Origin: Fontisphaera persica
GTDB taxonomy: Bacteria; Verrucomicrobiota; Verrucomicrobiia; Limisphaerales; Fontisphaeraceae
NCBI RefSeq assembly: GCF_024832785.1
Contig: NZ_CP116615.1
Coordinates: 186,001 to 250,000, forward strand
Direction of reading: 5' to 3'
Length of the DNA: 64,000 bases
In this document: piece after piece, positions 1 to 25,900 of the stretch
How the letters are laid out: the number at the start of each line of letters is the position of its first letter
How positions within the stretch are numbered: position 1 is the stretch's first letter
The notes under the pieces: generated by a model
What the model was told of the DNA's origin: nothing
The model's input: only the letters and a program-made list of their open reading frames with translations
Databases searched by the model: none
Made by a program: the position numbers and the translations under genes

Positions 1-841
1 ATTATTATAAAAACCTGAGAAAACAAAGCTTATGGTTCAAATATGCACAGAAAACTTTTGCTTATACGGAGACTGATCATCCGCCGCATTTTATGCACGG
101 AATATACAGTTCGGCGGAGAAATGGAGAAATGGAACAAACAGGTACGCAAGTTGTGGGTACTACATGCATCAGAAGTGTTACCCTAATCCGATGCCACAC
201 GGACCATTGGGTTATGAACGGGAAAAAAATATTTGTTCTCATTTTTAGGGAGAAACAGCCATAAGACACGCAAAAGGATATTTGAGTTGGGAAGGCAGTG
301 GAGGAATGCGTTAATACTTGATACTTCGGAATACAATCATTTTACCGACAGCAAAGAGCGAAAGGTGGAATATCAAATCAAGTACTGGAAGGCATCACTT
401 GAATCTAAGTATGCGCTTTGTCCCCGCGGTGCGGGAACGTCCAGTGTAAGACTCTTTGAAATGATGGAAGCAGGTGTGGCTCCAGTTATCATTTCGGATG
501 ATTGGATACCATGTTTTGGACCCAAGTGGGAAGACTTTGCAATATTCGTCTCGGAAAATGAAATTCAAAGCCTTCCAGAAATATTGCGAAAACATGAGAA
601 TGAATATCAGAAACGCGGTGAACTGGCGCGCAAGGCTTGGGAAATGCACTTCAGCCCTGAAAAATATGGAAGATTTCTTGTGGACAGTATTTTAAAAATA
701 ATGAGAGAACAAAAAGTGTCTGAACGATACTACCGTACAATATATCCAGTTCTTTTAGCCAGTGAAGTCTTGCGCTGCTTTGGCATCCGGATGTCAATAT
801 ATGCCAAAATACTAGTCAAACGTATGGCAGGTGCAATATGA
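1..841 (+). pseudogene. Exostosin-family (GT47) glycosyltransferase, frameshifted, 5' end outside window
   Basis: The reading frame is open from the left edge (codons in register with base 3) and continues one frame away from about base 233. The joint lies in a run of seven A at 223-229; one more A would restore a reading such as EREKKYLFSFLGRN, typical of exostosin domains. The C-terminal half carries the family hallmark around 415-500 (CPRGAGTSSVRLFEMMEAG, then PVIISDDW). Exostosin-like proteins transfer sugars during surface polysaccharide assembly. The downstream GT10 relic overlaps it by 4 nt, so the two were probably cotranscribed. The single-base lesion could be decay or a sequence error; many other glycosyltransferase genes in this locus are broken too. 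Confidence 0.75.
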
Positions 842-1766
842 AGAAAGTTCGCATTACATCAATCAATTACAAAGCTCATTTGTGGGAAGACTCTATTATT
901 GATGACATACTATATTCAGGAAAGCTATCACTCCAAGAGGCTGATGGATTGTTGGCAATCGTGGATCCAACCGAAGAACTGCTAATATTCAAGGGACCGA
1001 AATTATGGTACACATATGAGCCTTCATGGCATTATCACTATCGAGGACACCCGATTGGAAAGAAATTGGTAAGGATATTGAAACCTGATGAATGGGCGTA
1101 TTTTGCAAATAAAGACGAAAGATACAGAGTCCCACATTCCACCCACATTGGAGAATTATCATGTCCTAGAGAAAATAATCAAACAAAAAGCGTTGTAGCT
1201 GTTGTATCAAATTATGGAGGAAGGTTGTGGTTTCTAAGACCACACATTTGGCTAAGAAATATATTCATTCTAAATAAAAATGTAGAGTTGTTTGGAAAGA
1301 TGGAGAAATGGAGTCAGTTTAGGCATTTCCCTTTAATTTGGAAGAAAGGCTTGCCAAGCAATTATAAGGGACCTCCCAGTGCAGGACCCAATGCCGACGA
1401 ATATATATTATTTTGTCGAAATATAAAGTATGTGTATGTCTGGAAAACAGTTGTGAGAAATATTACTTCACAGAGAAGTTTGTTAATGCGGTTCGGGCTG
1501 GTTGTATTCCAATATATCATCCTCATTCATCTGTTAGAAATATATTTCTGAAAGGAGCCCGATGGGTGGACCCAAAAGATTTTAATTATTCACCCAAAAA
1601 AACCATTGCTTTTGCGTTGAGGCAGGATATTAATGAATATCGCAAATATAACGATGCGTGGTTGCGATCGGGCATGCTGGACAAACTTGACCATGCAAAA
1701 GTAATCCCACTATGGCTACATCCGATATTTAAGGAGAAATTTGCAAGAGATGAAAAAAAGAAATAG
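838..1766 (+). pseudogene. GT10 (alpha-1,3-fucosyltransferase-like) gene, frameshifted
   Basis: The ATG at 838 overlaps the previous stop (ATGA). The first frame runs to about 1412, then the GT10 motif continues in another frame: YKVCVCLENSCEKYYFTEKF followed by AGCIPIYHPHSSV, the conserved donor-binding block of fucosyltransferases (ENS...TEK...G.IP.Y). The shift falls at the T run 1411-1414, where one extra T would rejoin the frames. Read as one protein it would be about 309 residues, the expected size for a bacterial GT10. The frame ends at 1766, inside the start of rfbA. No GDP-fucose biosynthesis gene is in the window, so the donor is not shown. Confidence 0.78.
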
Positions 1767-2643
1767 TAGAAAAGGCATCATTCTTGCCGGTGGGGCGGGG
1801 ACGAGGTTGCATCCGGTGACGCTGGTATGCAGCAAGCAGTTGTTGCCGGTTTATGACAAACCGATGATCTATTATCCGCTGGCAGTCTTGATGCTGGCGG
1901 GAATCCGTGAGATATTGGTCATCAGCACGCCGCAGGATTTGCCCAGGTTCAAGGAATTGCTCAAAGCTGGGGAGCAATGGGGACTCCAATTTTCATATGC
2001 CGAGCAACCGCATCCGGGTGGGCTGGCGCAGGCGTTTATCATCGGCAGGGAGTTTGTAGGAAAGTCGGATTGCTGTTTGATATTAGGCGATAATATTTTT
2101 TACGGACATGGTTTGCAGGAGTTGTTGGCCCGAGCCGCTCAAAGAGCCAGCGGAGCGACGGTATTTGCCTACTATGTGGGAGATCCGGAGCGGTATGGAG
2201 TAGTGGAATTTGACGATAACGGAAAAGCGCTGAGCATCGTGGAAAAGCCCAAACAACCGAAGTCCAACTGGGCCGTGACGGGGTTGTATTTTTATGATAA
2301 CCAGGTGCTGGATATTGCGGCGAGGTTGAAGCCTTCGGCGCGTGGGGAATTGGAAATTACAGATGTCAATAACGCTTACTTGAAGCGTGGTCAATTGCAG
2401 GTGGAGCGGCTGGGGCGTGGCATTGCCTGGTTGGACACCGGGACGCATGAGGCATTGCTGGCGGCCAGCAATTTTGTGGCGGCCTTGGAGAATCGGCAGG
2501 GTTTACAGGTCTGCTGCCCGGAGGAGGTGGCTTTCCGGCAGGGCTGGATAGATGGGGCGCATCTACTCCGTCTGGCTCAACCACTGGCCAAAACAGAGTA
2601 TGGAAAATATTTAATCCGGCTGGCGGAAGGTAGAGGGATTTAG
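1750..2643 (+). CDS. rfbA: Glucose-1-phosphate thymidylyltransferase (RmlA/RfbA)
   Basis: It makes dTDP-glucose from dTTP and glucose-1-phosphate, the first step to dTDP-L-rhamnose and to other dTDP-deoxysugars. The N-terminal nucleotidyltransferase signature GGAGTRLHP lies at about residues 14-22, followed by [16 protein letters not shown], and the length of about 297 residues is right for the short RmlA form. I chose ATG 1750, which gives the usual short lead to [11 protein letters not shown] at 1741 lies only 4 nt after the AAGGAG at 1731-1736 and is also possible. It overlaps the dead GT10 gene and opens the rhamnose cluster that continues with rfbC and rfbD after two inserted genes. Confidence 0.95.
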
Positions 2644-2667
2644 GCATAATTGGGAGTGCACCCCTAA

Positions 2668-3216
2668 ATGAACAGAGAGGAAATCATTGAGTTATTTGAG
2701 AAGCTTGATCGTGAACTGAAAAGTTCCGCCAAACTCTATCTGTATGGCAGCGGCGTTTTTATTTTGCTGGGTGAAATAGGACGGGTGAGCGTGGATTTGG
2801 ACATCGCTGGCCCTTATTCCCAGGCCAACATGGCAGACGTTCGCCACGCTGCTGAAAAAGCCGGCATTCCAGTAAATCCAGACGAGTTTTATACCGGCAA
2901 CCATATCGAATGGGTTGGTCCTTTGCTATTATGCCTGCCAGAACCTCAAGCCGGCGCCAAGACAATGCTTTTGTGGCAGGGTGAGAAACTGGAAATCCTG
3001 GCCCCACCACCCGCAGACTTGGTGGCCAGCAAGTTAATCCGCTATGATGAATCTGACCGGGCGGACCTCCAGTATTTGTACTCTTTGTACCCATGGAGTT
3101 GGAAGGAGGTAAGCGACGCGGTGGGCCGGCTGCCGGGGCGTTTTCGGCAGGACCCAGTGGTGAAGGAAAATTTGCTCAATCTAAAAACTGACATGGAATT
3201 GTGGGCCGGGAGGTAG
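2668..3216 (+). CDS. DUF6036-type nucleotidyltransferase-like protein
   Basis: A 182-residue soluble protein. Near residues 25-45 it has YLYGSGVFILLGEIGRVSVD followed by LDIAG, the G-S...R.S.D.D pattern of minimal nucleotidyltransferase folds. Such proteins often form one half of two-gene, toxin-antitoxin-like modules. It sits between rfbA and rfbC, 24 nt after rfbA, with the next gene starting 1 nt after its stop, so the pair looks translationally coupled. It has no evident role in rhamnose synthesis. The family assignment rests on motif pattern and on the ASKLIRYDESDRADLQYLY stretch (about residues 113-131). Function is unknown. Confidence 0.6.
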   Translation: MNREEIIELFEKLDRELKSSAKLYLYGSGVFILLGEIGRVSVDLDIAGPYSQANMADVRHAAEKAGIPVNPDEFYTGNHIEWVGPLLLCLPEPQAGAKTMLLWQGEKLEILAPPPADLVASKLIRYDESDRADLQYLYSLYPWSWKEVSDAVGRLPGRFRQDPVVKENLLNLKTDMELWAGR

Positions 3217-3217
3217 A

Positions 3218-3583
3218 TTGACGCCAAGAGAGATATTGCAACTGGCGTATGAAATCGCGTTTTTTCCTCCGCGATTAAATGCGTTGTGGGTGGAATGGGA
3301 GCGGGGCAGGAAAATGCCCGCCGAGGAGCAGGGGCGCGCATTGGACATTGCGGAAATGCTTCACGAACGTTTGCCTGAAACGGGTTATGCTTCGCACCGG
3401 GCTTTGAAGCGTCTGGCCATGTATCAGGCCGATGCCCGCGTGTTTGGGATGCCAAGGTTTGTCCGCAACGTTCGCCGCCGACTCGGGCGCCCGCCCCTGA
3501 AGGTGAACGAGGTGCCATCTGAGTATGTTCGGGACATTGCATTGCCGCGTTTTTGCCGGCCACGGCATGAGTCGCAGGCTTAA
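3218..3583 (+). CDS. Hypothetical protein paired with the DUF6036-like gene
   Basis: A 121-residue basic protein that I do not recognise. It starts at TTG 3218, one base after the upstream stop, with GGGAGG about 7 bases ahead, so it is probably coupled to the DUF6036-like gene. The sequence is mostly helical in appearance with an arginine-rich stretch (FVRNVRRRLGR near residues 81-91) that could bind nucleic acid. No catalytic motif, signal peptide or membrane segment is visible. It and its partner look like a two-gene cassette placed inside the rhamnose operon. A toxin-antitoxin role is only an inference from that arrangement. Confidence 0.55.
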   Translation: MTPREILQLAYEIAFFPPRLNALWVEWERGRKMPAEEQGRALDIAEMLHERLPETGYASHRALKRLAMYQADARVFGMPRFVRNVRRRLGRPPLKVNEVPSEYVRDIALPRFCRPRHESQA

Positions 3584-3597
3584 GGGAAAGTGAATTT

Positions 3598-4149
3598 GTG
3601 AAAGTTGAGACGACGGAAATTCCCGGTTTATTGATCATAACCCCGGATGTTTTTGGGGATGCGCGTGGCTTTTTCATGGAGACATGGAATCGGCGGCGGT
3701 ATCAGGAAGCCGGCCTGCCAGACGTTGACTTTGTGCAGGATAACATTTCACTAAGCCGACGGGGGACGTTGCGCGGTTTGCATTTCCAAAACCCGCGCGC
3801 CCAGGGAAAGCTGGTCAGCGTGTTGCAGGGCGAGGTGTTCGATGTGGCGTTAGATTTGCGGCGCAGCTCACCGACGTTTGGGCGCTGGCATGGGGTGCGC
3901 CTGGACGCGGAATCGAAGACCCAATTTTACATACCGCCCGGTTTTGCGCATGGCTTTGCGGTCTTGAGCGAGACGGCGCTTTTTCATTATAAGTGCACGG
4001 ATTACTATTCGCCACAGGATGAATTGGCGGTTCGCTGGGATGATCCGAGCATTGGCATCCGATGGCCGGTGGAGAATCCCATTTTGTCTCGTCGTGATGC
4101 CCAAGCCCCGCTGCTGAAGGATGTGCCGTTGGAGAGGTTGTTTGAGTGA
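3598..4149 (+). CDS. rfbC: dTDP-4-dehydrorhamnose 3,5-epimerase (RmlC/RfbC)
   Basis: It epimerises dTDP-4-keto-6-deoxyglucose at C3 and C5 in the third step of dTDP-L-rhamnose synthesis. The cupin core shows VQDNISLSRRGTLRGLHFQ (about residues 46-64) with the catalytic histidine at 62, then VFDVALDLRRSSPTFG, and FYIPPGFAHGFAVLSE later in the chain, all RmlC hallmarks. The length of 183 residues is standard. The start is GTG 3598, after a GGGAAAG-type site. It is followed 37 nt later by rfbD. Confidence 0.96.
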   Translation: MKVETTEIPGLLIITPDVFGDARGFFMETWNRRRYQEAGLPDVDFVQDNISLSRRGTLRGLHFQNPRAQGKLVSVLQGEVFDVALDLRRSSPTFGRWHGVRLDAESKTQFYIPPGFAHGFAVLSETALFHYKCTDYYSPQDELAVRWDDPSIGIRWPVENPILSRRDAQAPLLKDVPLERLFE

Positions 4150-4186
4150 ACGGCCCGGGCTGGCAGGTATTGTTGGGGGGAAGTGC

Positions 4187-5044
4187 GTGAAAGTATTGAT
4201 CACAGGGGGAAAGGGCATGCTGGGGCGGACCTTGTGCCGACGGCTGGTGGCGCATGAGGTGTTGGTGGCGGATTTGCCGGAGGTGGACATCACCCATTTG
4301 CGGCAGTTGGAAGAGGCGGTGCGCGGTTTTGGCCCGGAGGTTATTATTCATTGCGCCGCGATGACCGCGGTGGATGCTTGCGAGTCCCAGGTGGAATTGG
4401 CGTACAAGGTCAACGCCTTGGGCAGTGCCAATGTGGCGGTGAGCGCGTTTCGGGCGCGGGCATGGTTGATTGCCATTTCGACGGATTATGTCTTTGATGG
4501 CAGGCTGGATCGGCCGTATCACGAATGGGATGTGCCTTTACCGGCTACCGTTTACGGCCAAAGCAAGCTGGCGGGGGAGCGAGCCGTGCAGATGCATTGT
4601 CCCGAGCACACGATTGTGCGAACGGCCTGGTTGTATGGGCCGGGTGGGCCGAGTTTTCTGCACACCATGCTAAAATTGGGCCACGAGGAGGGGCCGTCCC
4701 TCAAGGTGGTGAATGATCAGTTGGGCAATCCCACTTCAACGGATGCTTTGGCCGGGGCCCTTGCATGGCTAATGGAGCAGCGGGTGCCGGGCATTGTGCA
4801 CGCGACATGCGAGGGCGAAGCCACGTGGTATGAATTTGCGCGGGAGATATTTAAGTTATGGGGTTTGCGCCGTCCCTTGGAGCCATGCACCACACGCGAA
4901 TTCCCACGTCCTGCGCCTCGTCCGGCAAACAGCCGTTTGGAAAAACGGGTTCTAAGGCTGGCCGGTGGGCCGGAGATGCCAGAGTGGCGGGAGGCATTGA
5001 GTTCTTTTAGGAAATTCAATTTCGATGGGGAAATAAAAAATTAA
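4187..5044 (+). CDS. rfbD: dTDP-4-dehydrorhamnose reductase (RmlD/RfbD)
   Basis: It reduces the 4-keto group with NAD(P)H to give dTDP-L-rhamnose. The N-terminal Rossmann motif is TGGKGMLG (about residues 6-13). The SDR catalytic tyrosine and lysine are in YGQSK at 123-127, with STDYVFDG upstream and VRTAWLYG downstream as expected. An upstream in-frame codon at 4121 is open, but GTG 4187 is preceded by GGGGGGAAG and gives the canonical KVLITGG N-terminus, so I chose it. At 285 residues it is full length. rfbB, which makes the substrate of RfbC, is not in this window. Confidence 0.94.
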   Translation: MKVLITGGKGMLGRTLCRRLVAHEVLVADLPEVDITHLRQLEEAVRGFGPEVIIHCAAMTAVDACESQVELAYKVNALGSANVAVSAFRARAWLIAISTDYVFDGRLDRPYHEWDVPLPATVYGQSKLAGERAVQMHCPEHTIVRTAWLYGPGGPSFLHTMLKLGHEEGPSLKVVNDQLGNPTSTDALAGALAWLMEQRVPGIVHATCEGEATWYEFAREIFKLWGLRRPLEPCTTREFPRPAPRPANSRLEKRVLRLAGGPEMPEWREALSSFRKFNFDGEIKN

Positions 5045-5071
5045 GCGCTGGTATGAGAAGGGTATTAGAGC

Positions 5072-6607
5072 TTGAGCACAAACATTGAAAGGCAAGCTAA
5101 GGTTTTGCAAAGGATTATCCGTGTGCCTTATCTGGCGCCGTTTCTTGTGGGGATTGCGATTGTCGGGAATATAATAACATTGGTCAGGCCAAATTATGAC
5201 TGGCAGGAAGTTGGCATAGCCTTGGCGTTGGTGATGTCCATAACGGGAGTTGTAACATGGTTTTGCCATCGAATTTTTAAAAAGCCTGCCACTGCGGCAT
5301 TTGCTGCAGCATTAACCATTCTGGTTCTCGCCTATTTTAATACCATCGCGTCGGTGATTTTGGAGTGGTTGGTTCAGTCGCCTTTGCGTTTCATGGCGAG
5401 GGCTGCAGCGATTATTGTCATTGTGGGCGCCATCTACACCTTAATGTTATGGTATTTTGATAAAAAATTTGGCAAACGCCAGAACACCATGTTGTTTTGC
5501 AATTGGACACTGGTGATTCTAATCATAATAATAGCTAGCGATGGCTTGCTGCCGGGAATTTGGGAAAGGCGTTCCATTATAAATTGTGTAAAAAACAAGG
5601 AATTCGATTTGAAGAGCACTTATAAACCTGACGTGTTTTGGATAATCTTGGACGCTTACACCAGCAACGAAAGTTTGCAAAAATATTGGAATTACCAGAA
5701 CGAAGATTTTACCCGGAAGTTGGAGGAGCTTGGTTTCCATTTCATTCCCAACAGCCGCTCCATATCCCCAGCCACCCAGGAAAGCATCGCATCAACTTTG
5801 AATATGGGAATGTGCATTACAACGAATTCTGGCAAATTTGGTGAATACGGAAAGAATTCAAATTTTGCCAAAATAAGGTGGTCTTTGGTGAGCCAAATAT
5901 TTCATGAAATGGGTTATGATATTGTAAATTTAAGCCTTTTTCGAATTCAGAATACTAAAATGTTTTATACATATTCAGGCTATGGATTCAATATGACGGA
6001 CAGGTTGACTCATAATTCTCTTTTAGGTTACCTGTTTAATATAAGAGAGAAACATAAGAGGAAAGGCAAATCCCCGTGGGCTCTAAATGATGAGATATTG
6101 GACAAAATTAGTAATCATTTGAATGAGGCCCGAACCCGCCCTGTATTTGTTTACGCACATGTCATGTCACCTCACCCACCTTATGTATATAATTCAAGCA
6201 GTACTATAAACTCTTCCATTTCTTCATTTCCAGATAAATGGAAATACCTGGATCAACTTATATATACCAACAAAAGAGTGGTTGAAACATTGGAGGTATT
6301 AAAACGTAGAAAGGGCGCCCCTCCTGTCATTATTATTCAGGGAGACCACGGCAGCCGTGTGCTGGCCTTGAAAGACCAGAGTGAGGATGAAAACACAAGC
6401 ATTATCAATGCCATGTATTTTCCTAATGCCAGCCCTTCCTGGTTTTGGAATGGAATGCATGCTGCTGATACTTTTCGATTGGTTTTCAACAAGTGCTTCG
6501 GAGCCAATTACGCATATTTGAGTCGGCGGCCAAGTATAATTGAAACCAATCGAGTGGCGCGCGCAGGGGAAGCCTACACAAAAATCGAGGCGGAAAAGAA
6601 AAATTGA
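5072..6607 (+). CDS. Membrane alkaline-phosphatase/sulfatase-superfamily protein
   Basis: A 511-residue protein with about five N-terminal membrane segments (roughly 20-40, 49-67, 74-95, 106-125, 145-165) followed by an extracytoplasmic catalytic-type domain. Superfamily metal-ligand motifs are visible: PDVFWIILDAY (Asp about 194), AHVMSPHPPYVY, and IIQGDHGSR (Asp 425, His 426). This build resembles membrane transferases that move phospho-substituents onto glycans or lipids, but the substrate is not readable. The start TTG 5072 lies 27 nt after rfbD. It is followed by a tiny YVDPGSG protein and a kinase-like/methyltransferase fusion, which may act with it. The coding sequence is noticeably more AT-rich than rfbACD. 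Confidence 0.8.
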   Translation: MSTNIERQAKVLQRIIRVPYLAPFLVGIAIVGNIITLVRPNYDWQEVGIALALVMSITGVVTWFCHRIFKKPATAAFAAALTILVLAYFNTIASVILEWLVQSPLRFMARAAAIIVIVGAIYTLMLWYFDKKFGKRQNTMLFCNWTLVILIIIIASDGLLPGIWERRSIINCVKNKEFDLKSTYKPDVFWIILDAYTSNESLQKYWNYQNEDFTRKLEELGFHFIPNSRSISPATQESIASTLNMGMCITTNSGKFGEYGKNSNFAKIRWSLVSQIFHEMGYDIVNLSLFRIQNTKMFYTYSGYGFNMTDRLTHNSLLGYLFNIREKHKRKGKSPWALNDEILDKISNHLNEARTRPVFVYAHVMSPHPPYVYNSSSTINSSISSFPDKWKYLDQLIYTNKRVVETLEVLKRRKGAPPVIIIQGDHGSRVLALKDQSEDENTSIINAMYFPNASPSWFWNGMHAADTFRLVFNKCFGANYAYLSRRPSIIETNRVARAGEAYTKIEAEKKN

Positions 6608-6659
6608 ACTTGCATTTGACATCCACCAATGTTTAATTTAAAAATTATTGGCCAGTAAT

Positions 6660-6857
6660 ATGGAAATATTTGGCTATGTGGACCCCGGGTCCGGCGCGTT
6701 GATCTGGCAAATGTTGGCGGCGGCCGCTGTCGGAGTTTTGTTTTATTTCCGCAGTTTTTTTCGTGGAATTGGGCGCTTTTTCCAGCGTTTGTTCGGAAAA
6801 TCGGTTGGTGTTGCATCCGATGCCGCCGCCCCGGGAGAGGTGGATAAAAAGACATGA
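6660..6857 (+). CDS. Small YVDPGSG-motif membrane protein
   Basis: A 65-residue protein beginning at ATG 6660 (a TTG at 6648 is in frame). It has the motif GYVDPGSGALIWQ near the N-terminus, then one hydrophobic segment (LAAAAVGVLFYFR), an amphipathic basic stretch and a hydrophilic tail. I recall short proteins with a Y-[IV]-D-P-G-[ST]-G head beside polysaccharide genes in several phyla, but no function is established that I know of. Its position between the membrane alkaline-phosphatase-superfamily gene and the methyltransferase fusion suggests it serves as a small partner or anchor for one of them. Confidence 0.7.
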   Translation: MEIFGYVDPGSGALIWQMLAAAAVGVLFYFRSFFRGIGRFFQRLFGKSVGVASDAAAPGEVDKKT

Positions 6858-6989
6858 GGGATGGCTATAATCGGATGTGCAGAGATGGTTGCTCATTCCG
6901 CCGCAGTCATTCATCAACATAAGCGAAACTGATTTTCCTGCAGCGGCCCACAATCTATACGTGGGCACACTCCCCAAGGGTTGACTTTC

Positions 6990-8414
6990 ATGTCCCAGCT
7001 TTCCTTTCGTGATCCGGCTGGGTTTTGCCTCATCCACAATGGCCGGGTTTTGCGCGGTTTGGCCGCCGGCGATTTGCCCGTGCTGGAGCGTTTTTTGCAA
7101 TTACCTAGCGCAAAGCGGATGATGGATGAGGGCAGGCTCATCAGAAGCCGCCGATTGCGCACTGGAGAAACCGATGCGTTGCAGCGAGACGGAAGATGTG
7201 GGGCGGTGGTGGCCGAGCGTCGTCCGGCAGCGGTTTTTGAGCATCCGCGCATCGAGTTTCCTTCGTACCCGTACGAATGGCCGCCGGAGATGCTTCAGGC
7301 CGCTGCCGAGTTGACCTTGGACATGGCCCAAACAGCGCTTGCCGATGGTTTTAGTCTGAAGGACGCTACACCGTATAACGTGCTTTTCGACGGCCCACAA
7401 CCGGTTTTCATTGATTTGCTCTCTTTTGAGCCGCGCCGTCCCGGCGACCCCGTCTGGCTGCCCGCGGCTCAGTTTGAGCGCACGTTCCTGCTGCCGCTGC
7501 TGGCCAACAAATACTGGCGACTGCCGCTGGCGGATATTTTCCTCGCCCACCGCGATGGGCTGGAGCCGCAGGCGCTATTGCCCATGTGCGGACCCTTGCG
7601 CCGCTGGCTGCCACCGTTTTTGGGGCACATCACTCTGCCGGCCTTGTTAAGCCGAAAAAAGCCAATCAAAACAAATATTTATAAGCCGCGGCAGCTCGCC
7701 AACGCCGCTCAGGCTCGTTTCGTTTTGGATTCGCTGTTCAACCGGCTGCGCCGGGCCGTGCGGCGCCTGGGGCCGCCTGCCAACCGCCCCAGTGTCTGGT
7801 CAGATTACACGGATGCCAACAGCTACAACGAGCTCACGCTGCGGGCCAAAATGGATTTCGTGCGCAACGCCCTGGTGGCCGGTGGGGCCAGTCGCGTACT
7901 GGACATTGGCGCTAACACCGGGCAATTCAGCCTGCTGGCCGCGGAGGTCGGCGCACAGGTGGTGGCGGTGGATTATGATGCGGAATGCGTGGGCCGGATA
8001 TGGCGTCAGGCGCGCGAGCGCAAGCTGCCCATCTTGCCATTGGTGGTGGACGTATCGCGTCCCACCCCGGCCGTGGGTTGGCGCAATCGCGAATGCTCCA
8101 GTTTCCTGGAGCGCGCCTGCGGCGCTTTTGATACGGTGCTAATGCTCGCCGTCGTGCATCACCTGGCCATCACTGAACGGGTGCCATTGCCGGAGATTCT
8201 TGGTTTGGCGGCCTCGCTTGCCACCCGTAGCCTGGTGATTGAATGGGTGGGCCCCAAAGACCCCATGTTCCAAACCCTCTTGCGTGGCCGAGAGCACCTT
8301 TACACCCACCTAACCCAGGAGGCCTTTGAACACGCCTGCGGAAACCATTTTCAAATCGAACGTAAACAACCTCTGGAGGGATTGGACAGGTGCATGTATC
8401 TCCTGTTGAAATGA
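6990..8414 (+). CDS. Kinase-like domain fused to class I SAM methyltransferase (NoeA-like)
   Basis: A 474-residue protein starting at ATG 6990. The C-terminal half is a Rossmann methyltransferase: VLDIGANTGQFSLLA (Asp about 305) binds SAM, followed by VVAVDYD and LMLAVVHHL. The N-terminal half contains KDATPYNVLFDG (Asp 125, Asn 130) and PVFIDLLSFE (Asp 142). These match the spacing of the catalytic loop (D-x4-N) and the metal-binding Asp of kinase/aminoglycoside-phosphotransferase folds. Kinase plus methyltransferase in one chain recalls WbdD, which caps O-antigen chains with methyl phosphate, but with the domain order reversed. The methyltransferase is clear; the kinase reading is my inference. 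Confidence 0.78.
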   Translation: MSQLSFRDPAGFCLIHNGRVLRGLAAGDLPVLERFLQLPSAKRMMDEGRLIRSRRLRTGETDALQRDGRCGAVVAERRPAAVFEHPRIEFPSYPYEWPPEMLQAAAELTLDMAQTALADGFSLKDATPYNVLFDGPQPVFIDLLSFEPRRPGDPVWLPAAQFERTFLLPLLANKYWRLPLADIFLAHRDGLEPQALLPMCGPLRRWLPPFLGHITLPALLSRKKPIKTNIYKPRQLANAAQARFVLDSLFNRLRRAVRRLGPPANRPSVWSDYTDANSYNELTLRAKMDFVRNALVAGGASRVLDIGANTGQFSLLAAEVGAQVVAVDYDAECVGRIWRQARERKLPILPLVVDVSRPTPAVGWRNRECSSFLERACGAFDTVLMLAVVHHLAITERVPLPEILGLAASLATRSLVIEWVGPKDPMFQTLLRGREHLYTHLTQEAFEHACGNHFQIERKQPLEGLDRCMYLLLK

Positions 8415-8432: not shown

Positions 8433-9008
8433 ATGAACGTAACAACGTTTTGTCATCCTGACAGTTTGGTTGAGGAGGGAGCAGTCGTAGGAAAAAATAC
8501 GCGGGTATGGGCTTTTGCCCACGTCTGCAAAGGGGCCATAATTGGCGATTATTGCAATATTTGTGATCACACCTTTATTGAAAAGGGAGTTGTTATTGGA
8601 AACCGGGTCACGATTAAATCTGGGGTATATTTGTGGGACGGGATTGTTGTAGAGAATGACGTTTTTATTGGGCCATGTGCAGCATTCACCAATGACATGC
8701 GTCCCCGGAGCAAGCAGTATCCGCCAGAATATTTGAAAACTATTTTGCGGCAGGGTTGCTCCATTGGAGCCAATGCAACAATTCTTCCAGGTCTGGAAAT
8801 TGGCAGGTGGGCGATGGTGGGGGCCGGCGCCGTAGTCACAAAAAGTGTGCCTGATTTCGGTTTGGTTTATGGAAACCCGGCAAGGTTGCAGGGATATGTA
8901 TGTGAATGCGGATGCCGATTGCAATTTGAAAATCAAGTTGCCAGTTGCCAATGCGGCAAAGCCTATCAAATACGCAATAACATTGTCACCCATTCAAAAA
9001 ATCCATGA
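8433..9008 (+). CDS. Hexapeptide-repeat acyltransferase, FdtC/WlbB-like
   Basis: A 191-residue left-handed beta-helix acyltransferase with repeated hexapeptides from about residue 14 ([18 protein letters not shown]) to the end of the coil ([20 protein letters not shown]). The C-terminus has a small cysteine-rich tail (CECGCRL and CQCGKAY) that could hold a metal. In neighbours-of-FdtAB contexts such proteins acetylate the 3-amino group of a dTDP-3-amino-3,6-dideoxyhexose. Its stop overlaps the start of the ketoisomerase gene (ATGA), so the three genes 8433-10515 form one translational unit. Whether the product is dTDP-Fuc3NAc or dTDP-Qui3NAc cannot be decided by eye. Confidence 0.85.
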
Positions 9009-9418
9009 GCCTTGCTCGTTGCCGTATTATTGAACTCCCCAAAATCGCTGATCCGCGGGGTAATTTGACCTTCATTGAAGGCCAGCGGCATGTGCCTTTT
9101 GAAATCAGGAGGGTTTTCTATTTGTATGATGTGCCGGGTGGGGCAGAAAGAGGGGGGCATGCTCATAGAGAACTAGAGCAACTAATTATTGCCATGTCCG
9201 GCAGTTTTGATGTGATACTGGACGATGGGCGGGAGAACAAGCGGTTTCATTTGAATCGTTCGTACTACGGTCTGTATCTCTGTCCCATGATATGGGGGGA
9301 GCTGGATAATTTTTCGAGCGGTTCTGTATGCCTGGTGTTGGCGTCCAACTATTATGATCCCGATGATTACTACCGGGATTATCAGGAGTATCTGGCGGCG
9401 CTGGGGAGGGAGAAGTGA
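9005..9418 (+). CDS. fdtA: dTDP-4-keto-6-deoxyglucose 3,4-ketoisomerase (FdtA/QdtA-like, WxcM-like cupin)
   Basis: A 137-residue cupin of the WxcM-like/FdtA family. It has the family features [28 protein letters not shown] and GHAHRELEQ, then [13 protein letters not shown] and a C-terminal [14 protein letters not shown]. It would move the keto group from C4 to C3 of dTDP-4-keto-6-deoxyglucose, making the substrate for the adjacent aminotransferase. The start ATG 9005 overlaps the acyltransferase stop, and its own stop overlaps the next start (GTGA). FdtA and QdtA differ in C4 stereochemistry of their products; I cannot tell which this is. Confidence 0.88.
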
Positions 9419-10515
9419 GGGTTCCATTTCTAGAACTTAAACCGACTTACGAGGAGCTAAAGCCCGAGCTGGACGCTGCCTACCATCGGGTGATGGATTC
9501 CGGTTGGTACCTGCTCGGCCAGGAACTGGCTGCGTTAGAGGGCGAAATTGCGGATTACTGTGGCACGCGACACGCGGTAGTCGTGGGCAGTGGTCTGGAC
9601 GCCATGCACCTTGTATTGAGGGCTTGGGGCATCGGAACCGGTCACGAGGTCATTGTCCCCTCCAACACTTACATTGCCACTTGGCTGGCCGTAACGTATG
9701 CTGGGGCCAGGCCTGTGCCCGTGGAGCCGGATCTCCAAACTTATAACTTAGACCCCGATAAAATCCGCGGAGCCATTAGTCCCAGGACCCGCGCTATCTT
9801 GCCGGTGCATTTGTATGGTCAGCCGGCAGACATGGACCCCATTATGGAGATTGCCCGTGAGCATGGGTTGCTGGTGCTGGAAGATAACGCCCAGGCTTTT
9901 GGCGCGCGTTACAAGGGGCGGCGGACGGGCAGTTTAGGGGATGCGGCAGCGCACAGTTTTTACCCGGGCAAGAATCTAGGTGCTTTTGGAGATGGCGGCG
10001 CCGTGACCACCAATGATGCTGAACTGGCGCGCAAGGTGCGCATGCTGCGTAATTACGGCTCCGAGATCAAGTATCACCATGAGTATTGCGGCTTTAATTC
10101 TCGTTTGGACGAGTTGCAGGCGGCCTTTTTGCGGGTAAAGCTGAACAGGCTGGATGAATGGAATCAAAGGCGGCAACGGTTGGCGCAGATTTACCTGGAG
10201 AACTTGGCGGGGATTGACGGCCTGACTTTGCCCCGGATTGCAGAGGGGGCGGAAACTACCTGGCATTTGTTTGTGGTGAGGCATTCGCGGCGGGATGAGT
10301 TGCAAAAACGCCTGACGGCGGCAGGCATAGGTACGCTTATTCATTATCCTATTCCACCGCATTTGAGTGGTGCTTATGCGGGCTATGGCTGGAAACACAG
10401 TGACTTCCCCATTGCTGAGGAGCTCGCCAATACCGTGCTCAGCCTGCCCATGGGGCCGCATCTGAGCGAGGCGCAAGTGGGGTATGTGGTGCAGTGCCTT
10501 AAAAACTCCACCTAA
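9415..10515 (+). CDS. fdtB: DegT/DnrJ/EryC1 PLP-dependent sugar aminotransferase (FdtB/QdtB-like)
   Basis: A 366-residue aminotransferase that would aminate the 3-keto-6-deoxyhexose. The PLP lysine lies in [14 protein letters not shown] (Lys about 186), with [15 protein letters not shown] just before it and [20 protein letters not shown] after it, all standard for the family. Early residues [16 protein letters not shown] and [17 protein letters not shown] also match. The GTG start at 9415 overlaps the FdtA stop. Product and partner genes fit a dTDP-3-amino-3,6-dideoxyhexose. The precursor needs RfbA (present) and RfbB (absent here). Confidence 0.92.
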
Positions 10516-10581: not shown

Positions 10582-12132
10582 TTGAGCACCTTGACCACAG
10601 AATCTGTGACAGAAGCCCCGCCAGGCGAAACCACTGCCCGTCCGGGCACTTATGGGCGAATCCTCAAAAGCTCAGCGCTGATTGGGGGATCGTCGGTGGT
10701 TAATGTGCTGGTGAGCATGATCCGCGTGAAATTCACCGCAGTTTATTTGGGGCCGTTGGGAGTGGGGTTGTTGGGAGCGTATCACTCGATCTTGGCCCCA
10801 ATAGGAACCGTTGCCAGCATGGGGCTGGGTGCGGGGGCTGTCCGCCAAATTGCCGAAGGTGTGGGGCAGGGGGACCAGGCCAAGGTTTCCCGCGCATTGC
10901 AGACCATCCGCCGGGCTTCATTTATCACCGGCACTTTGGGGGTAATTCTCACCTGCCTGTTGGCCTATCCTGCCAGCCTATATACCTTTGGCAATGCTGA
11001 CCACGTCTGGGCTTTGTGTGCCCTTTCGCTAACTTTACTGATGGGTTCCCTGGCCGGCGGGCTGGGGGCCATTATACAGGGCATGCGCCGCATTCGCGAT
11101 ATGGCTGCGCAGGGGATAATTGGCTCGGTGCTTGGTTTGGTCATTAGTGTCCCCCTGATGATCTGGCTGGGCGTAAAAAGCGTGGTGCCCATGATGTTGC
11201 TCAGCTCCTTGGCGGCATTAATTGTTACCTGGCTGTTTGCCCGGCGCATTCAAGTGCCCTGCGTGCCTTTGACATGGCGTCAGACATGGCTGGAGGCTCG
11301 GCCCATGTTGAAATTAGGCATCGTCATGACCGCTAGCGGCCTGATTGGCATGGGAGTGAATTATATTATTCGGCTCATCCTCATTCGCAAACTTGGCCTC
11401 GAAGCCAATGGTATTTATTCCGCCGCCTCAATGCTCTCCAGTTATTACGTGAATATCATTCTGGGAGCAATGGGAGCTGATTTTTATCCACGGCTTGCCG
11501 AGGTGAATAAGAACCACCCTGAGGTCAACCGGCTGGTCAATGAACAAACCGAGGTTGGGCTGCTGATTGCGTTGCCGGGAGTGATTGCCACCCTCACCAT
11601 GGCGCCGCTGGTCATCCATATTTTTTACACCAGCAAATTCCTGCCGGCAGTGGAAGTTCTGCAATGGATGGTGCTGGGGGTGGCCCTGCGTGTCGTCACC
11701 TGGCCCATGGGTTATATTTTGCTGGCCAAAGGCGCCAAGCGAATGTTTTTTTGGACTGAACTGGCTTCCAACATTGTCCTAGTGACTTTGACCGTCTTGG
11801 CGGTTTATATATGGGGACTTAAGGGCACCGGCATCGCGTTTTTTGGATTATACTTATTTTATCTGGCCTTGATGCTCGTTGTCACGAACCGCATGACCGG
11901 ATTTTCGTGGACACCATACAGCCGGCAATTGGTGTTATTATTTTCCGCGACCGCTGCCCTGGCTTTTGTCATCGCCTGGAAAATTCCATTTATCTGGGCT
12001 GCGGCAATCGGAGCCAGCCTCGCTACTGCCACCGGTCTCTGCGCCTTAAGCGAATTGACCCGCTTGATTGGGCGCAACCCCATTGCGGTTTTTTGGCAGA
12101 AACTACGCAACAACCTGCCCGGAATATCTTAG
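10582..12132 (+). CDS. wzx: Wzx-type polysaccharide flippase
   Basis: A 516-residue polytopic membrane protein of the MOP superfamily, with about 12-14 hydrophobic segments from residue 25 to 505. The opening region RILKSSALIGGSSVVNVLVS, then FTAVYLGPLGVGLLGAYHSI, and later GLEANGIYSAASMLSSYYVN resemble O-antigen translocases of the WzxE/RfbX kind. It would move undecaprenyl-linked oligosaccharide units across the inner membrane. The start is TTG 10582; no strong ribosome-binding site is seen. It is GC-rich like the rfb/fdt genes and precedes the glycosyltransferase block. The matching polymerase candidate is at 25900. Confidence 0.88.
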   Translation: MSTLTTESVTEAPPGETTARPGTYGRILKSSALIGGSSVVNVLVSMIRVKFTAVYLGPLGVGLLGAYHSILAPIGTVASMGLGAGAVRQIAEGVGQGDQAKVSRALQTIRRASFITGTLGVILTCLLAYPASLYTFGNADHVWALCALSLTLLMGSLAGGLGAIIQGMRRIRDMAAQGIIGSVLGLVISVPLMIWLGVKSVVPMMLLSSLAALIVTWLFARRIQVPCVPLTWRQTWLEARPMLKLGIVMTASGLIGMGVNYIIRLILIRKLGLEANGIYSAASMLSSYYVNIILGAMGADFYPRLAEVNKNHPEVNRLVNEQTEVGLLIALPGVIATLTMAPLVIHIFYTSKFLPAVEVLQWMVLGVALRVVTWPMGYILLAKGAKRMFFWTELASNIVLVTLTVLAVYIWGLKGTGIAFFGLYLFYLALMLVVTNRMTGFSWTPYSRQLVLLFSATAALAFVIAWKIPFIWAAAIGASLATATGLCALSELTRLIGRNPIAVFWQKLRNNLPGIS

Positions 12133-12148
12133 TTATGAGTATATTATA

Positions 12149-14299
12149 ATGGACAAAACAAATTCTACACCCCTGCAAACCACCCACGATCCATCTGCTG
12201 GAGACGCGGCCACTTCAACCTCGCGCCCGCTGGTGACCTTCATGCTGATTGCTTACAACCAGGAAAGGTACATACGCGAGGCGGTGGAAGGCGCCTTTGC
12301 CCAGACCTACAGCCCGCTTGAAATCATCCTTTCTGATGATTGCTCCACGGATCGCACCTTTGAAATCATGAAGGAAATGGCCGAGCAATACAAAGGCCCT
12401 CACAAAATCATCCTCAATCGCAACGAACGCAACCTCGGCATTTGCGGCCACGTCAACCGCTGCGTGGAGTTAACCCACGGAGAACTCATCGTTTGCGCAG
12501 CCGGGGATGATATTTCTTTGCCATTTAGAACTGAATATTGCGCCGATTTAATGTTTAGAGAGCCACGGGCAAGCTGTGTTTTTTCAAATGCAGTGTTAGT
12601 TGATGAGAACGGAGCTATAATATCAGAAAACTTGCTGTATCCTGAAACAGTATCTGACCAAATTATAAGGATTAAAATACACAAGTATTTGCCGGTAACA
12701 TTGGTCGTAATCAATGATATAAAAAATGTTGACTGCATAAATAATTGGATTTTTGGATGTACAGCATGCTATAAGCGGGAATTGTTTAAGATTTTTGGTG
12801 AATTAAATAATTCCTTGCAGAATGAGGATAATGTCATGGCATTTAGAGCATCACTAGTGGGGAAAATTGGTTTTATTAACACAAACACTGTTTTATACAG
12901 GCGGCACCGAAATACTTTAAGCAACTTAATAACGCAAACGACAAAGCAAAAGAGAATTGAGAATGATAGAGAGAATATATTACAAAAATATAAAGATTGC
13001 ATGGTGATGATTAATCATAGAATTGATAATAAGGCCTATAAAATATTAAGGAAAAAATTACTCGCAAGGTATTACGAAACATTCCTCGACCATGATGGCA
13101 TACGTTACCTTTTAGTTGCTAAGCCTGAACGTAATATTCTAACAACTGGTTATTGTCTAACTTGTGTGTTACACAAATACTATTTAAGAAAACTAAAATC
13201 TGCGTTAAAAAAGATAAAAATATTACTATGTAAATATTCAGAGAAATTTATTCGTACTTGGAAAATTATAGATAATTTAGAATATCAGGATTATGATTGG
13301 AAATTATTTTTATATAAAAATATAAAGAAAAGAGCAGATGATATATTAATTGGCAAACTGAATATGTTAGAACATATGAAGATTCACGGAAACGAGTATT
13401 TAGCAGATTCATTCGCATATAAAATAAGGAATGCCGAAATCAGAGGATGCAGTGGTTTAATTATATTAAATAAAAATAAAATATTATACTATAAACAATG
13501 GTACAAAAAATATATATTCGACGATAACTCATTATGGGCGCTAAATAAAACTAAAATTGAGAAACTTGGGGGAGTATGGCTCTGTCTTTTGCAAAGATGG
13601 GGCAAAGAATATTATCATTGGATTCACGATGTTATGCCAATGCTTTACTTGATAAAGGACAAAGTTAAGTACGATGGTATTATTTTAAATCATGATCTTC
13701 TTCCGTATCAGATTAGATCTCTCGAAATGCTAGGCATCGAAGAAAAAATATACCACTATAATGGGTCTTATAGATTGGAAGTGGAAAGTCTTATTATAAC
13801 CACTCCAGTCGGTTCCACCTTTTTTACTGATGGTAAATTGTTAAAAAATATGGCGATGTGCATTAAGAGTAAGGCAAAAAATCATACACCTTATAAGGCA
13901 AAAATATTATATATATCTAGAAATGATGCAAATACAAGGAGAGTCTTGAACGAATATAAGTATCGAAGAATATTAGAAGCAAACAATATTGAAGTACACA
14001 TGCTATCCAATTATAGTTTAGATGAACAAATGATGCTGTTTTCAAATGCAGAGGTAGTGATTGCTCCTCATGGAGCGGGTATAATAAATATAATATTTTC
14101 TGATAGAATAAAGTGTCTGATTGAAATTGACGAGGAAAAAAGTGATAGAAAAATGTACGAAGCGCTGGCTTTCGACTTGGATATACGTTATTATAAAGTG
14201 TGTGCACGAGCTGTAAACAAAAAAAATTATCAGCTCGATTATCTAATTGATGATTACAATATTGAACAAATTCTTGATATAGTCAGAAAATATAAATAA
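12149..14299 (+). CDS. GT2-GT61 fusion glycosyltransferase, compositionally mosaic
   Basis: A 716-residue protein. Residues 15-240 form a GT2 (GT-A) domain: VTFMLIAYNQERYIREAVEG, then EIILSDDCSTDRT and AAGDD. The last 300 residues resemble GT61/DUF563: WGKEYYHWIHDVMP, LYISRNDANTRRVLNE and VVIAPHGAGIINIIF (His about 641). ATG 12149 is 17 nt after wzx. About 360 bases at the 5' end are GC-rich like the upstream genes; from about 12510 (residue 121) the DNA becomes strongly AT-rich without loss of frame. That suggests a recombination joint inside the conserved GT2 region. The protein is intact although its AT-rich part is full of A and T runs. Confidence 0.85.
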   Translation: MDKTNSTPLQTTHDPSAGDAATSTSRPLVTFMLIAYNQERYIREAVEGAFAQTYSPLEIILSDDCSTDRTFEIMKEMAEQYKGPHKIILNRNERNLGICGHVNRCVELTHGELIVCAAGDDISLPFRTEYCADLMFREPRASCVFSNAVLVDENGAIISENLLYPETVSDQIIRIKIHKYLPVTLVVINDIKNVDCINNWIFGCTACYKRELFKIFGELNNSLQNEDNVMAFRASLVGKIGFINTNTVLYRRHRNTLSNLITQTTKQKRIENDRENILQKYKDCMVMINHRIDNKAYKILRKKLLARYYETFLDHDGIRYLLVAKPERNILTTGYCLTCVLHKYYLRKLKSALKKIKILLCKYSEKFIRTWKIIDNLEYQDYDWKLFLYKNIKKRADDILIGKLNMLEHMKIHGNEYLADSFAYKIRNAEIRGCSGLIILNKNKILYYKQWYKKYIFDDNSLWALNKTKIEKLGGVWLCLLQRWGKEYYHWIHDVMPMLYLIKDKVKYDGIILNHDLLPYQIRSLEMLGIEEKIYHYNGSYRLEVESLIITTPVGSTFFTDGKLLKNMAMCIKSKAKNHTPYKAKILYISRNDANTRRVLNEYKYRRILEANNIEVHMLSNYSLDEQMMLFSNAEVVIAPHGAGIINIIFSDRIKCLIEIDEEKSDRKMYEALAFDLDIRYYKVCARAVNKKNYQLDYLIDDYNIEQILDIVRKYK

Positions 14300-17311: not shown

Positions 17312-18229
17312 GGGCTTGCCCCGTTTGATGGAAACCCGGGGGCTGGTGCGGTAGAAACACCGTGCACATGAAAAAGCCAACCTCAGCCAACCGCAGGAAG
17401 CCGCCCCAAGGGCGGCCCAAACACATCCCCAAGCCAAGCGCTACGACGACGCCTTCAAGCGGCAGGCCGTGGAGCATTGGCTCCGTAGTGGCAAGCCTGG
17501 CACTCAGGTCGCCGCCGAGCTCGGCGTCAGCTACCCCACCCTTAAGGGCTGGCGGCCCCAATACACCGGCGACGCGCTGCCCGCCGCCGCCGAACTGGCC
17601 GCCGAGAAACGGGCTCAAGGCCGAACTGGCCCGGGTGCGCGAACAGCGCGACATTCTATAAAAACCTTGGGCATCCTCTCCGAACCGCCGAAGAAGGCTA
17701 CCAACGGGTGCAAGCCATGAGCGGGCATCATTCAATCACGCAACTCTGCGCCGCCTTGGGGTCGGCCCCTCCGGTTATTATGCTTGGGCGTAGGCGGCTC
17801 CCAGCACCCGCGCCCGGGAGGACGCGGCTATCGCGGCGCTGGCCAAAACCGGCGAGCGCCCGCGCCCAAAAGACGCGGCCCTGCAGGAGCAGCTCATGGC
17901 GCTGCACGCCGCACATCGAGCCGCGCTGTCGGAAGCGGGAGCGCAACCGAGCATGAGCCGGTCCGGCAACTCTTATGACAACGCTGCCATGGAAAGCTTC
18001 CTGGCCACCTACAAGTGGGAATGCGTCGCCTTGGCCGAGGAACAGGGCGGGTACCCTACCCGTGCCGAAGCGCAGGTGGACGCCTTCGCCTACTTTGAAA
18101 CCTATGACAACACCACGCGGCTCCACCGCGCGCTCGATTACCTATCCCCTGTGGACTTTGAGAAAAAATTAACTAAATACAATCCATGCGTAGCACCGCT
18201 CCTAGGTACTATCAAACCTGGTTAAGCCT
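17312..18229 (+). mobile_element. IS3-family insertion sequence relic B with internal deletion
   Basis: Imperfect terminal inverted repeats of about 21 bp bound it: GGGCTTGCCCCGTTTGATGG at 17312 and the inverse of ATCAAACCTGGTTAAGCC at 18211-18228. orfA (about 17365-17720) reads FKRQAVEHWLRSGKPGTQVA and AAELGVSYPTLKGWR but needs two frame changes, and a TAA interrupts RDIL. orfB begins near 17717 (MSGHHSITQLCAALG), has a lost G and a TAG near GYYAWA, then jumps from ALQEQLMALHAAHR to AGAQPSMSRSGNSYDNAAME. The middle of the DDE integrase domain with its first two acidic residues is therefore deleted; the final E region and LDYLSPVDFE remain. No clear target duplication is seen. It cannot encode an active transposase. 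Confidence 0.85.
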
Positions 18230-24647: not shown

Positions 24648-25900
24648 ATAATACTTTTCGCGATTTAAGTGAAATGGATATGTATTCAGCGAGGAGCCCG
24701 AGAACATTATGCCATACCCGGGCATTGAAATCTGCCAACAGGCTGGAGTGTTTAATGACCGAGTTTTATGCCCACTGGTGTCTAGAAACGATAGGAGCAA
24801 ATGCCCCATGGGGCGTGATCAAACGTTTAGCAACACGGCGGAACAATCAATTGGATGATGCAAAAGTCATCTCTTGGAACGCCGGGGCATTGTGGAGGGA
24901 ATTGAACTGCCCCAAAAAAAACCGATACGAGCACTATTTAAGTGAAAATGCATGGTTTGGGACTCAGTGCCTTCGATGGTTGCAAAAGAACAAACCCCGT
25001 GTGTCAAAACACACGGTTATATTTTCATATAGCGGCACGGCAATAGAGGTGTTTAAATGGGCAAAGTTCCAAGGTGCTAGAACAGTGCTCGGGATGATTG
25101 ACCCGGGGCGGGTTGAACAGGAGATAGTGCGAGAGGAGGCAGCACGCTGGCCAGGATGGGAGAAAGAACGAGATGTAGCGCCTGAATTGTACAATCAACG
25201 GCGCATTGAGGAATGCAGAATTGCAGATGTCATTGTGGTCAATTCGAGGTGGTCTTTGGAATGCCTAGAAAAACAAGGCGTGCCCCCAAAAAAAATATTT
25301 GTTATTCCCTTATGTTACGAGTCTGCGAGGGAGGAAGCTGATTTTAGGAGGCATTACAAAGGTTCACTTTGGGATCAGGGAGTGCGCCCATTCACGGTAT
25401 TGTTCCTCGGTCAAGTCATCTTACGCAAAGGTATTCAATACCTGATACAGGCAGCGAAACATCCTGATTTGGCTGAAGTGGTTTTTGATGTGGTTGGTCC
25501 TGTGGGTATAACAGAAGCTGCCATCAGGAGCGCGCCATGCAACATGCGATTTCATGGGATTGCAAGTCGGACCGATGTATCTGAATGGTATAGGCGTGCC
25601 GACCTATTTGTTTTGCCGACAATATCAGATGGATTTGCCATAACGCAAATTGAGGCAATGGCTCATGGATTGCCGGTGATAGCTACTCCCAATTGTGGGG
25701 AGGTGGTACGTGATGGGGAGGATGGGCTGATAGTCCCAGTTAGAGATTCCAATGCATTAGTTGAGGCCATACTGCGTTTTGTTAAAGATCCGAGTTTTCA
25801 CAACAAATGCCGGGAGCAGGCCATGATTCGTAGCAGGGATTTCACCTTGCACGTATTGCAGAATAAGCTAATTGAATTGGAGAAAATGTTGGAAATTTAA
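24635..25900 (+). CDS. GT4 family glycosyltransferase
   Basis: A 421-residue GT-B enzyme. The C-terminal donor domain shows FTVLFLGQVILRKGIQYLIQ (about residues 250-269), FHGIASRTDVSEWYRRADLF, and ISDGFAITQIEAMAHGLPVI with the E-x7-E-like pair, then NCGEVVRDGEDGLIVP. The GTG start at 24635 overlaps the end of the broken GT2 gene. The stop TAA shares its last base with the ATG of the polymerase gene. It is the first fully intact gene after the graveyard. Donor and acceptor sugars cannot be read from the sequence. Confidence 0.88.
   Translation: MRTLNNTFRDLSEMDMYSARSPRTLCHTRALKSANRLECLMTEFYAHWCLETIGANAPWGVIKRLATRRNNQLDDAKVISWNAGALWRELNCPKKNRYEHYLSENAWFGTQCLRWLQKNKPRVSKHTVIFSYSGTAIEVFKWAKFQGARTVLGMIDPGRVEQEIVREEAARWPGWEKERDVAPELYNQRRIEECRIADVIVVNSRWSLECLEKQGVPPKKIFVIPLCYESAREEADFRRHYKGSLWDQGVRPFTVLFLGQVILRKGIQYLIQAAKHPDLAEVVFDVVGPVGITEAAIRSAPCNMRFHGIASRTDVSEWYRRADLFVLPTISDGFAITQIEAMAHGLPVIATPNCGEVVRDGEDGLIVPVRDSNALVEAILRFVKDPSFHNKCREQAMIRSRDFTLHVLQNKLIELEKMLEI

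Follow-up and report, generated by a model that had tools for sequence, protein, structure and literature searches.

What does an enzyme that joins a kinase-like domain to a methyltransferase do in a bacterial surface-glycan locus, and with which partners does it act? The question is raised by the gene at 6990-8414 of the window, by which is meant the whole 64,000-nucleotide stretch of the Fontisphaera persica genome analysed here, for which a sequence-only reading had suggested a WbdD-like role in capping glycan chains. Homology, conservation and a structural model point to a cytosolic enzyme in which a RIO/protein-kinase-like domain is followed by a class I methyltransferase. The new part is its genomic setting, a three-gene unit in which the genes for a NoeB-like membrane protein (B), a small membrane protein (S) and the kinase-methyltransferase follow one another (Table 1).

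Table 1. Features of the three-gene unit and of the glycan locus around it, in window coordinates.
Feature	Position	Strand	Basis or remark
RmlA-like nucleotidyltransferase	1741-2643		
RmlC-like and RmlD-like genes (dTDP-rhamnose)	3598-5044	+	
NoeB-like alkaline-phosphatase-superfamily membrane protein B, 511 aa	5072-6607	+	PF00884; start codon uncertain
Small membrane protein S, 65 aa	6660-6857	+	YxDPGxGx4Q motif, one predicted TM segment, basic C-terminal tail
NoeA-family kinase-methyltransferase, 474 aa	6990-8414	+	ATG start at 6990
Predicted protein-kinase-like domain, residues 1-232	6990-7685	+	AlphaFold2 model, fold searches, conservation, RIO3 register
R22 codon	7053-7055	+	Invariant; ATP-site Lys position by analogy with Lani_1194 R38 (PMC9758233, available text)
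Catalytic-loop D125 codon	7362-7364	+	
N130 codon	7377-7379	+	
Metal-site D142 codon	7413-7415	+	
Class I SAM methyltransferase domain, residues ~266-474	7785-8411	+	PF13489, VIA-align, conservation
Hexapeptide acyltransferase	8433-9008	+	
DegT aminotransferase	9415-10515	+	
Wzx-like flippase	10582-12132	+	Passes Pfam cut-offs
GT2 plus GT61 glycosyltransferase	12068-14299	+	

The locus had been described as being of the Wzx/Wzy type, of which the Wzx part stands with the flippase listed in Table 1 and the Wzy part was not confirmed, the Wzy_C match at 25900-27324 lying under its cut-off (22.3 vs. 31.7). Between 14300 and 24100 only short ORFs occur. They include fragments that resemble glycosyltransferases and one, recognisable by eye at 17896-18225, that resembles an IS3 transposase. 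Some peptide stretches are repeated near 17.2 and 22.4 kb, and this part looks like a decaying, insertion-rich portion of the glycan locus. The GC content, taken in 2 kb steps, is 0.37-0.54 over the glycan locus (1-32000) and 0.57-0.66 at 32-64 kb, the low values of the former being as in horizontally acquired islands.

Membership of the 6990-8414 product in the NoeA / Lani_1194 family is firm, with full-length kinship to annotated noeA in tblastn (30.5-30.7% identity over residues 5-472) and an E-value of 8e-63 against NoeA in BLASTP. The accessible text of PMC9758233 predicted the Lani_1194 family in 2022 to be a kinase-methyltransferase homologous to NoeA, with R38 in place of the PKA Lys, conserved Asp/Asn/Asp, an ion-pair Glu that could not be identified, and a methyltransferase in 94% of about two thousand kinase-domain homologues. 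The idea of a kinase-methyltransferase put forward by the sequence-only reading is therefore correct yet not new, having already been printed for this family. The available part of PMC9758233 cites Ardourel et al. (1995), in whose title noeA and noeB are named as host-range genes, and the accessible portions of PMC4053727, PMC9048898, PMC3899959 and PMC10945364 present NoeA/NoeB solely as host-specific nodulation genes or hypothesised modifiers of Nod factors. A search of the accessible literature for a biochemical role of noeA/NoeB, or for a substrate, product or activity of any family member, found none, and a search on Lani_1194 returned nothing beyond PMC9758233.

Relatives are widespread. 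Besides the gene itself, 97 related genomes held five full-length relatives (36-54% identity) and three further matches to the methyltransferase part only, and a 387-genome sample of the phylum gave 32 genomes with a match, the source genome included. In GTDB species genomes, relatives are encoded by at least 589 stretches; the 80 best loci were taken, and the groups named in their titles include Acidobacteria, Alpha- and Gammaproteobacteria, Bacteroidales, Chloroflexi, Planctomycete groups, Verrucomicrobia and chlamydiae. Among plasmid records there were 65 matches, and Sinorhizobium accounts for 57. Of the 20 matches listed, the three rhizobial ones carrying a gene name are noeA and many others are unannotated, the annotation in other genera being SAM-dependent methyltransferase, hypothetical or none at all. 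No relative was found in viral contigs, nor did tblastn with the protein yield a match in phages. Two alignments were made from these relatives. The first (A1) has 34 rows, the window protein and 33 relatives out of 38 loci picked by E-value and not by motif, near-duplicates such as L029/L030, L035/L038 and L019/L021 being included; five loci were left out, namely L001 (the window itself), L007-L009 (methyltransferase match only) and L025 (late start). The second (A2) has 73 rows, the window protein and 72 of those 80 loci, and is unbiased only for R22 and D142, since its loci had been searched with peptide patterns containing E96-W97, D125 and N130.

Structure prediction supports the kinase fold that had been proposed for the N-terminal half. 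The AlphaFold2 model of residues 1-232 (pLDDT 93.4) retrieved kinase or kinase-like domains as all of the best 50 matches listed by VIA-align (Z 9.8 to 9.1), led by PKR (Z 9.8, rmsd 4.1 over 183 residues). Foldseek likewise listed kinases as its best 50 matches, with Rio2 on top (E 1.8e-4, 12% identity), followed by CK2 (E 3.6e-4), and 21 matches at E 0.001 or better; WbdD is absent from the best 50 listed in each search, which excludes nothing. The modelled N-lobe is reduced, with strands at residues 5-8, 11-16 and 19-24. By sequence, the kinase half alone has a single match in the PDB, a weak one to RIO3 (E 0.4), in which a profile-to-sequence alignment sets D125, N130 and D142 on the RIO3 Asp, Asn and Asp. 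The half by itself has no NCBIfam match and, in Pfam, only a stretch at residues 97-143 resembling APH (PF01636) at 14.2 bits against a cut-off of 23.2, and APH membership was rejected on that score. As the Z values are moderate, the case for residues 1-232 as a protein-kinase-like fold rests on fold, register and invariance together, and on these grounds the model-based assignment is firm.

The motif residues on which the sequence-only reading had relied are indeed present in the translation, as K124-D125-A-T-P-Y-N130 and P138-V-F-I-D142, and the conservation check it had proposed for Asp125, Asn130 and Asp142 came out positive: these three, together with R22, E96, W97 and S145, are invariant in A1 (34/34). 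R22, E96, W97, D125, N130 and D142 are invariant in A2 as well (73/73), where E96-W97, D125 and N130 are pattern-biased, and alignments read by eye show all six kept in four distant members of 23-29% identity, one of which matched in two pieces. NoeA of S. meliloti keeps the D, the N and the second D and has Ser in place of K124. The invariance of D125, N130 and D142 disfavours the suggestion that the domain is a dead, non-catalytic remnant, and the kinase would be active despite having Arg for Lys.

SelO combines a kinase fold with AMP transfer. A comparable departure from phosphate transfer, in which the domain would transfer AMP or exert nucleotide-gated control and the methyltransferase alone would modify a glycan or lipid, is the first alternative to be weighed here, and it draws on the reduced N-lobe and on the Arg that is invariant in A1 at what is, from the accessible text of PMC9758233, the ATP-site Lys position. 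Against it, D125, N130 and D142 are fully kept in kinase register, and we regard this alternative as unlikely while granting it a real share of the probability.

The C-terminal methyltransferase, which the sequence-only reading had considered certain, was borne out by PF13489, which matches residues 250-393 with 33.3 bits (cut-off 27), and this half carries a DIGANTG motif and an invariant H390-H391. With the full-length AlphaFold2 model (pLDDT 94.5), the matches listed by VIA-align span residues 266-474 and include WbdD (Z 17.6) and the methylphosphate capping enzyme (Z 16.8), many other methyltransferases scoring equal to or above these two; that search is uninformative on the kinase half, methyltransferases filling the listed matches. 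In the same way, all PDB matches listed for the full-length sequence lie in the methyltransferase half, and NCBIfam matches are confined to it, none of them at its cut-off.

The small protein S precedes the NoeA gene by 132 nt, a gap above that of most relatives. The window S has no Pfam match (scanned from 6663), and none of five scanned S proteins reached a Pfam cut-off. In 51 S proteins (the window and 50 of 59 pattern-bearing loci, nearly all near NoeA), the Tyr, Asp, Pro, both Gly and Gln of the motif are invariant, the search pattern having demanded Asp-Pro-Gly-x-Gly, allowed Tyr as one of six permitted residues and left Gln free. Lys and Arg are absent from the 24 residues starting at the motif Tyr in 51/51 proteins and average 5.6 over the next 20, so that the tail probably lies in the cytosol, with the motif on the outer side. 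The tail has no residue at 90% conservation; ahead of the Tyr, 36 of the 51 carry a small-x-[A/G] triplet that may resemble a signal-peptidase site. A literature search with short peptide strings of the motif returned no paper. Searched against plasmids by tblastn, the window S gave no match at E 0.01, though an S. meliloti plasmid has S by profile, and a single-sequence search is thus too weak for a protein this short. According to the available text of PMC9758233, Lani_1193 adjoins Lani_1194 in 65% of 816 neighbourhoods and Lani_1195, which is NoeB-like with an alkaline-phosphatase fold, in 38%; S is likely to be Lani_1193. An unnamed 72-aa ORF ahead of S. meliloti noeA (L119, 7745-7960) carries the S motif, the order there being nodL, this ORF, noeA and noeB, and the nodL-noeA-noeB operon thus seems to hold a fourth gene. 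Elsewhere, locus L139 has two S genes (6645-6989 and 8975-9187), each followed by an ORF of ~500 aa without a Pfam match that is possibly another type of S partner.

The third protein, B, matches PF00884 at 41.6 bits against a cut-off of 25 and has five TM segments predicted from hydropathy. Over 43 rows, D194 and D425 never vary, and T235, H363, H368 and H426 are kept in 90% or more; these residues may be the Thr nucleophile and metal ligands. Five TM segments followed by an alkaline-phosphatase-superfamily domain is the layout of membrane phosphotransferases, for which reason B is read as handling a phosphodiester on the outside; it is probably an outward-facing, Thr-nucleophile enzyme of the LtaS/EptA type. 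Its profile matches sulfatase chains best, with LtaS and EptA chains also matching. A formylglycine sulfatase was considered and rejected, the translation holding no CxPxR by eye. NoeB of S. meliloti passes PF00884, as does the window B, and the B profile is common to both, their pairwise alignment being poor (28.5 bits); single-sequence search with the window B found it in just 23 of 84 loci. The genome from which the window comes has a single NoeA and a single S, and two of its B matches are strong (315 and 277 bits), none of the 19 remaining places exceeding 46 bits. The second strong NoeB-like gene lies at 6286-7968 of locus L148 (C1:502372-503784), and the surrounding 16 kb yielded neither NoeA nor S. 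Locus L111 has four NoeB-like genes in succession (838-7874), upstream of a NoeA relative.

The association of NoeA, S and B shows in gene neighbourhoods that recur, in joint presence across genomes and in a small number of fusions. The five full-length relatives from the same taxonomic order as the window have S beside NoeA in 5/5 and B in 4/5, NoeA of the fifth (L149) lying at a contig start. In the 80 loci, the best among at least 589 stretches, S lies within 500 nt of the NoeA relative in 70/80 and B in 66/80, both lie within 1200 nt of NoeA in 60/80, and no B was found in 11/80 and no S in 7/80, some but not all of these at contig ends; the S and B counts are not independent, the two profiles having been built partly on the same loci. 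A fairer test of the link between S and NoeA comes from samples of 387, 172 and 169 genomes, in each of which the genomes are related, so that Fisher values overrate their independence. The 387-genome sample, not chosen for S, holds NoeA in 33 genomes, S in 33 and both in 29 at an S limit of E ≤ 1e-6 that was set after viewing the list (at 0.01, 42 S genomes, 29 with NoeA); counted by genus, NoeA occurs in 24, S in 24 and both in 21 of 198. The two class samples were centred by choice on genomes with both genes: around G482 (L107, Nitratireductor), 9 of 172 genomes have NoeA, 10 have S and 7 have both, adjacent in 7/7, and around G484 (L117, Flavihumibacter), the figures are 15, 14 and 13 of 169, adjacent in 13/13, on opposite strands in G681, with the fourteenth S genome (G783) having a NoeA start at a contig end. 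S lies at most 500 nt from NoeA at 24 of the 38 NoeA places of the 387-genome sample (39 rows, two pieces of G467 being merged); of the other 14, five belong to a distant subfamily or match in the methyltransferase only, two lie at contig starts, six have their S solely on a different contig, and the last has it at a distance of 1555 nt.

Fifteen loci with S away from NoeA were examined (L139-L147, L157-L162). B stands beside or is fused to S in seven (L142, L145, L146, L147, L157, L158 and L160, the last with an S variant without DPGxG), and no B was seen in seven others (L139, L140, L141, L143, L144, L161 and L162); the S hit of L159, weak and in a frame overlapping longer ORFs, was not counted. 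In L157, the sole S-B fusion, the S module forms the N-terminus of a B protein of 518 aa from the first Met, with six predicted TM segments (1 + 5) and a NoeA gene start downstream at the contig end; its B part matches the B profile at E 1.6e-72, and the fusion protein has no Pfam match at E 0.01. S also stands at the N-terminus of a PF04464 protein, a CDP-glycerol:poly(glycerophosphate) glycerophosphotransferase, in L146 (profile E 9e-7), L147 (5e-8) and L158 (2e-11), and a large B-profile protein adjoins the fusion in all three. Few as they are, these fusions link S on one side with the protein read as facing outward and on the other with an enzyme of the cytosol that works in phosphodiester chemistry. 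The two large B proteins that were scanned (L158, 1083-4151; L146, 3702-6419) both contain a YidC/Oxa1-like domain (PF02096), alongside which PF00884 was reported in L158 and not in L146, where the alkaline-phosphatase-superfamily domain was identified by the B profile only.

The conserved partners S and B, both predicted to lie in the membrane, suggest that the kinase-methyltransferase belongs to a membrane-coupled modification system. The best explanation, which we hold with about even confidence, is that it works with S and B in a three-protein membrane unit that decorates surface glycans. Briefly, S would span the inner membrane with its YxDPGxG end outside, beside B, and its basic tail inside, where the tail would hold NoeA at the membrane. 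NoeA would then phosphorylate a membrane-bound acceptor, either a lipid-linked sugar or a lipid, and the methyltransferase half would methylate what results. In the simplest case this would yield, as WbdD does, a methyl phosphodiester, which the outward-facing B would move to, or process on, the surface glycan. The chemistry of this scheme, with a methyl phosphodiester product, a lipid-linked acceptor, S as coupler and B as the outside transferase, is inferred, as is physical contact among the three proteins.

The chain-capping role proposed at the outset has a narrower meaning, namely that NoeA adds phosphate and methyl to a growing polyprenol-linked glycan at its non-reducing end and so halts its extension, S and B having separate roles in the same locus. 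The same two predicted activities, the glycan locus and the closeness of the methyltransferase fold to WbdD and the methylphosphate capping enzyme, which many others equal or better, are consistent with it, and a precedent is given in the accessible text of PMC11231755 by ORF6 of K. pneumoniae O7, an unrelated methyltransferase-kinase terminator shown biochemically to phosphorylate and then methylate the glycan. WbdD, as described in the available part of PMC3482155, consists of a methyltransferase (1-210), a kinase (211-459) and a coiled coil. The order in the window protein is reversed, as the sequence-only reading had recognised, and in the model its chain ends inside the methyltransferase domain, leaving no C-terminal coiled coil; WbdD membership was rejected on these two grounds. 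S and B, moreover, often accompany NoeA relatives in distant phyla and do so in a nodulation operon as well. Capping as first stated, with no coiled-coil ruler in the model and partners that suggest membrane-coupled modification, is not supported; it is an unlikely reading and not the best fit, and we rate it a little below the departure from phosphotransfer considered above. Least probable is a regulatory kinase that phosphorylates a protein (the S tail, B or a glycan enzyme) next to a methyltransferase making an ordinary O-methyl sugar, to which the protein kinases among the listed fold neighbours and the basic, probably cytosolic S tail lend some colour, and against which stand the lack of a 90% conserved residue in that tail and the joining of S to CDP-glycerol-transferase-like enzymes, which are not kinases.

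The three-protein membrane unit may in turn be one case of something broader. We put forward tentatively, and with clearly less confidence than the unit itself, a general envelope system in which S couples a cytosolic phosphodiester-making enzyme, either NoeA or, in a sister form, a CDP-glycerol transferase, to an outward LtaS-like transferase, and in which methyl phosphate built inside on a lipid carrier would reach surface glycans or signals outside, the rhizobial noeA/noeB, together with the small gene ahead of noeA, being one case. Such a three-part system would have been overlooked owing to the ~60 aa of its key part. Placed in a unit that includes a tiny membrane protein and recurs across many bacterial phyla, its genes as a rule adjacent, NoeA/NoeB have a role that becomes testable and that, if the proposal is true, would give surface-glycan biology a further route of decoration, one of phosphodiester type.

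A comparison with known systems places the unit more closely. The kinase domain resembles RIO kinases, with Rio2 at the top in Foldseek and the RIO3 catalytic segment aligning with D125/N130/D142, and differs from them in its fused methyltransferase and in the 12% identity of the Rio2 alignment. B shares with LtaS and EptA the predicted five TM segments, the alkaline-phosphatase-superfamily domain and a profile that matches their chains, whereas sulfatase chains match that profile more strongly. Assays on K. pneumoniae O7 ORF6 demonstrate phosphorylation of a glycan by a divergent kinase domain, with methylation following; ORF6 differs in being a large multi-domain protein, methyltransferase first, with a coiled coil and glycosyltransferases (accessible text of PMC11231755). 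As in WbdD of E. coli O9a, a kinase and a class I methyltransferase are united in a single chain in a surface-glycan locus; unlike that methyltransferase-kinase-coiled coil protein, the window protein runs from kinase to methyltransferase, has no coiled coil in its model and is accompanied by S and B. With NoeA / Lani_1194 it shares full-length homology, the same kinase-then-methyltransferase order, conserved Asp/Asn/Asp, Arg for Lys, an adjacent NoeB-like gene and a small ORF ahead of noeA. Where Sinorhizobium has the order S-NoeA-B within a nod operon, the window has B-S-NoeA within a rhamnose/Wzx glycan locus of the Verrucomicrobiota.
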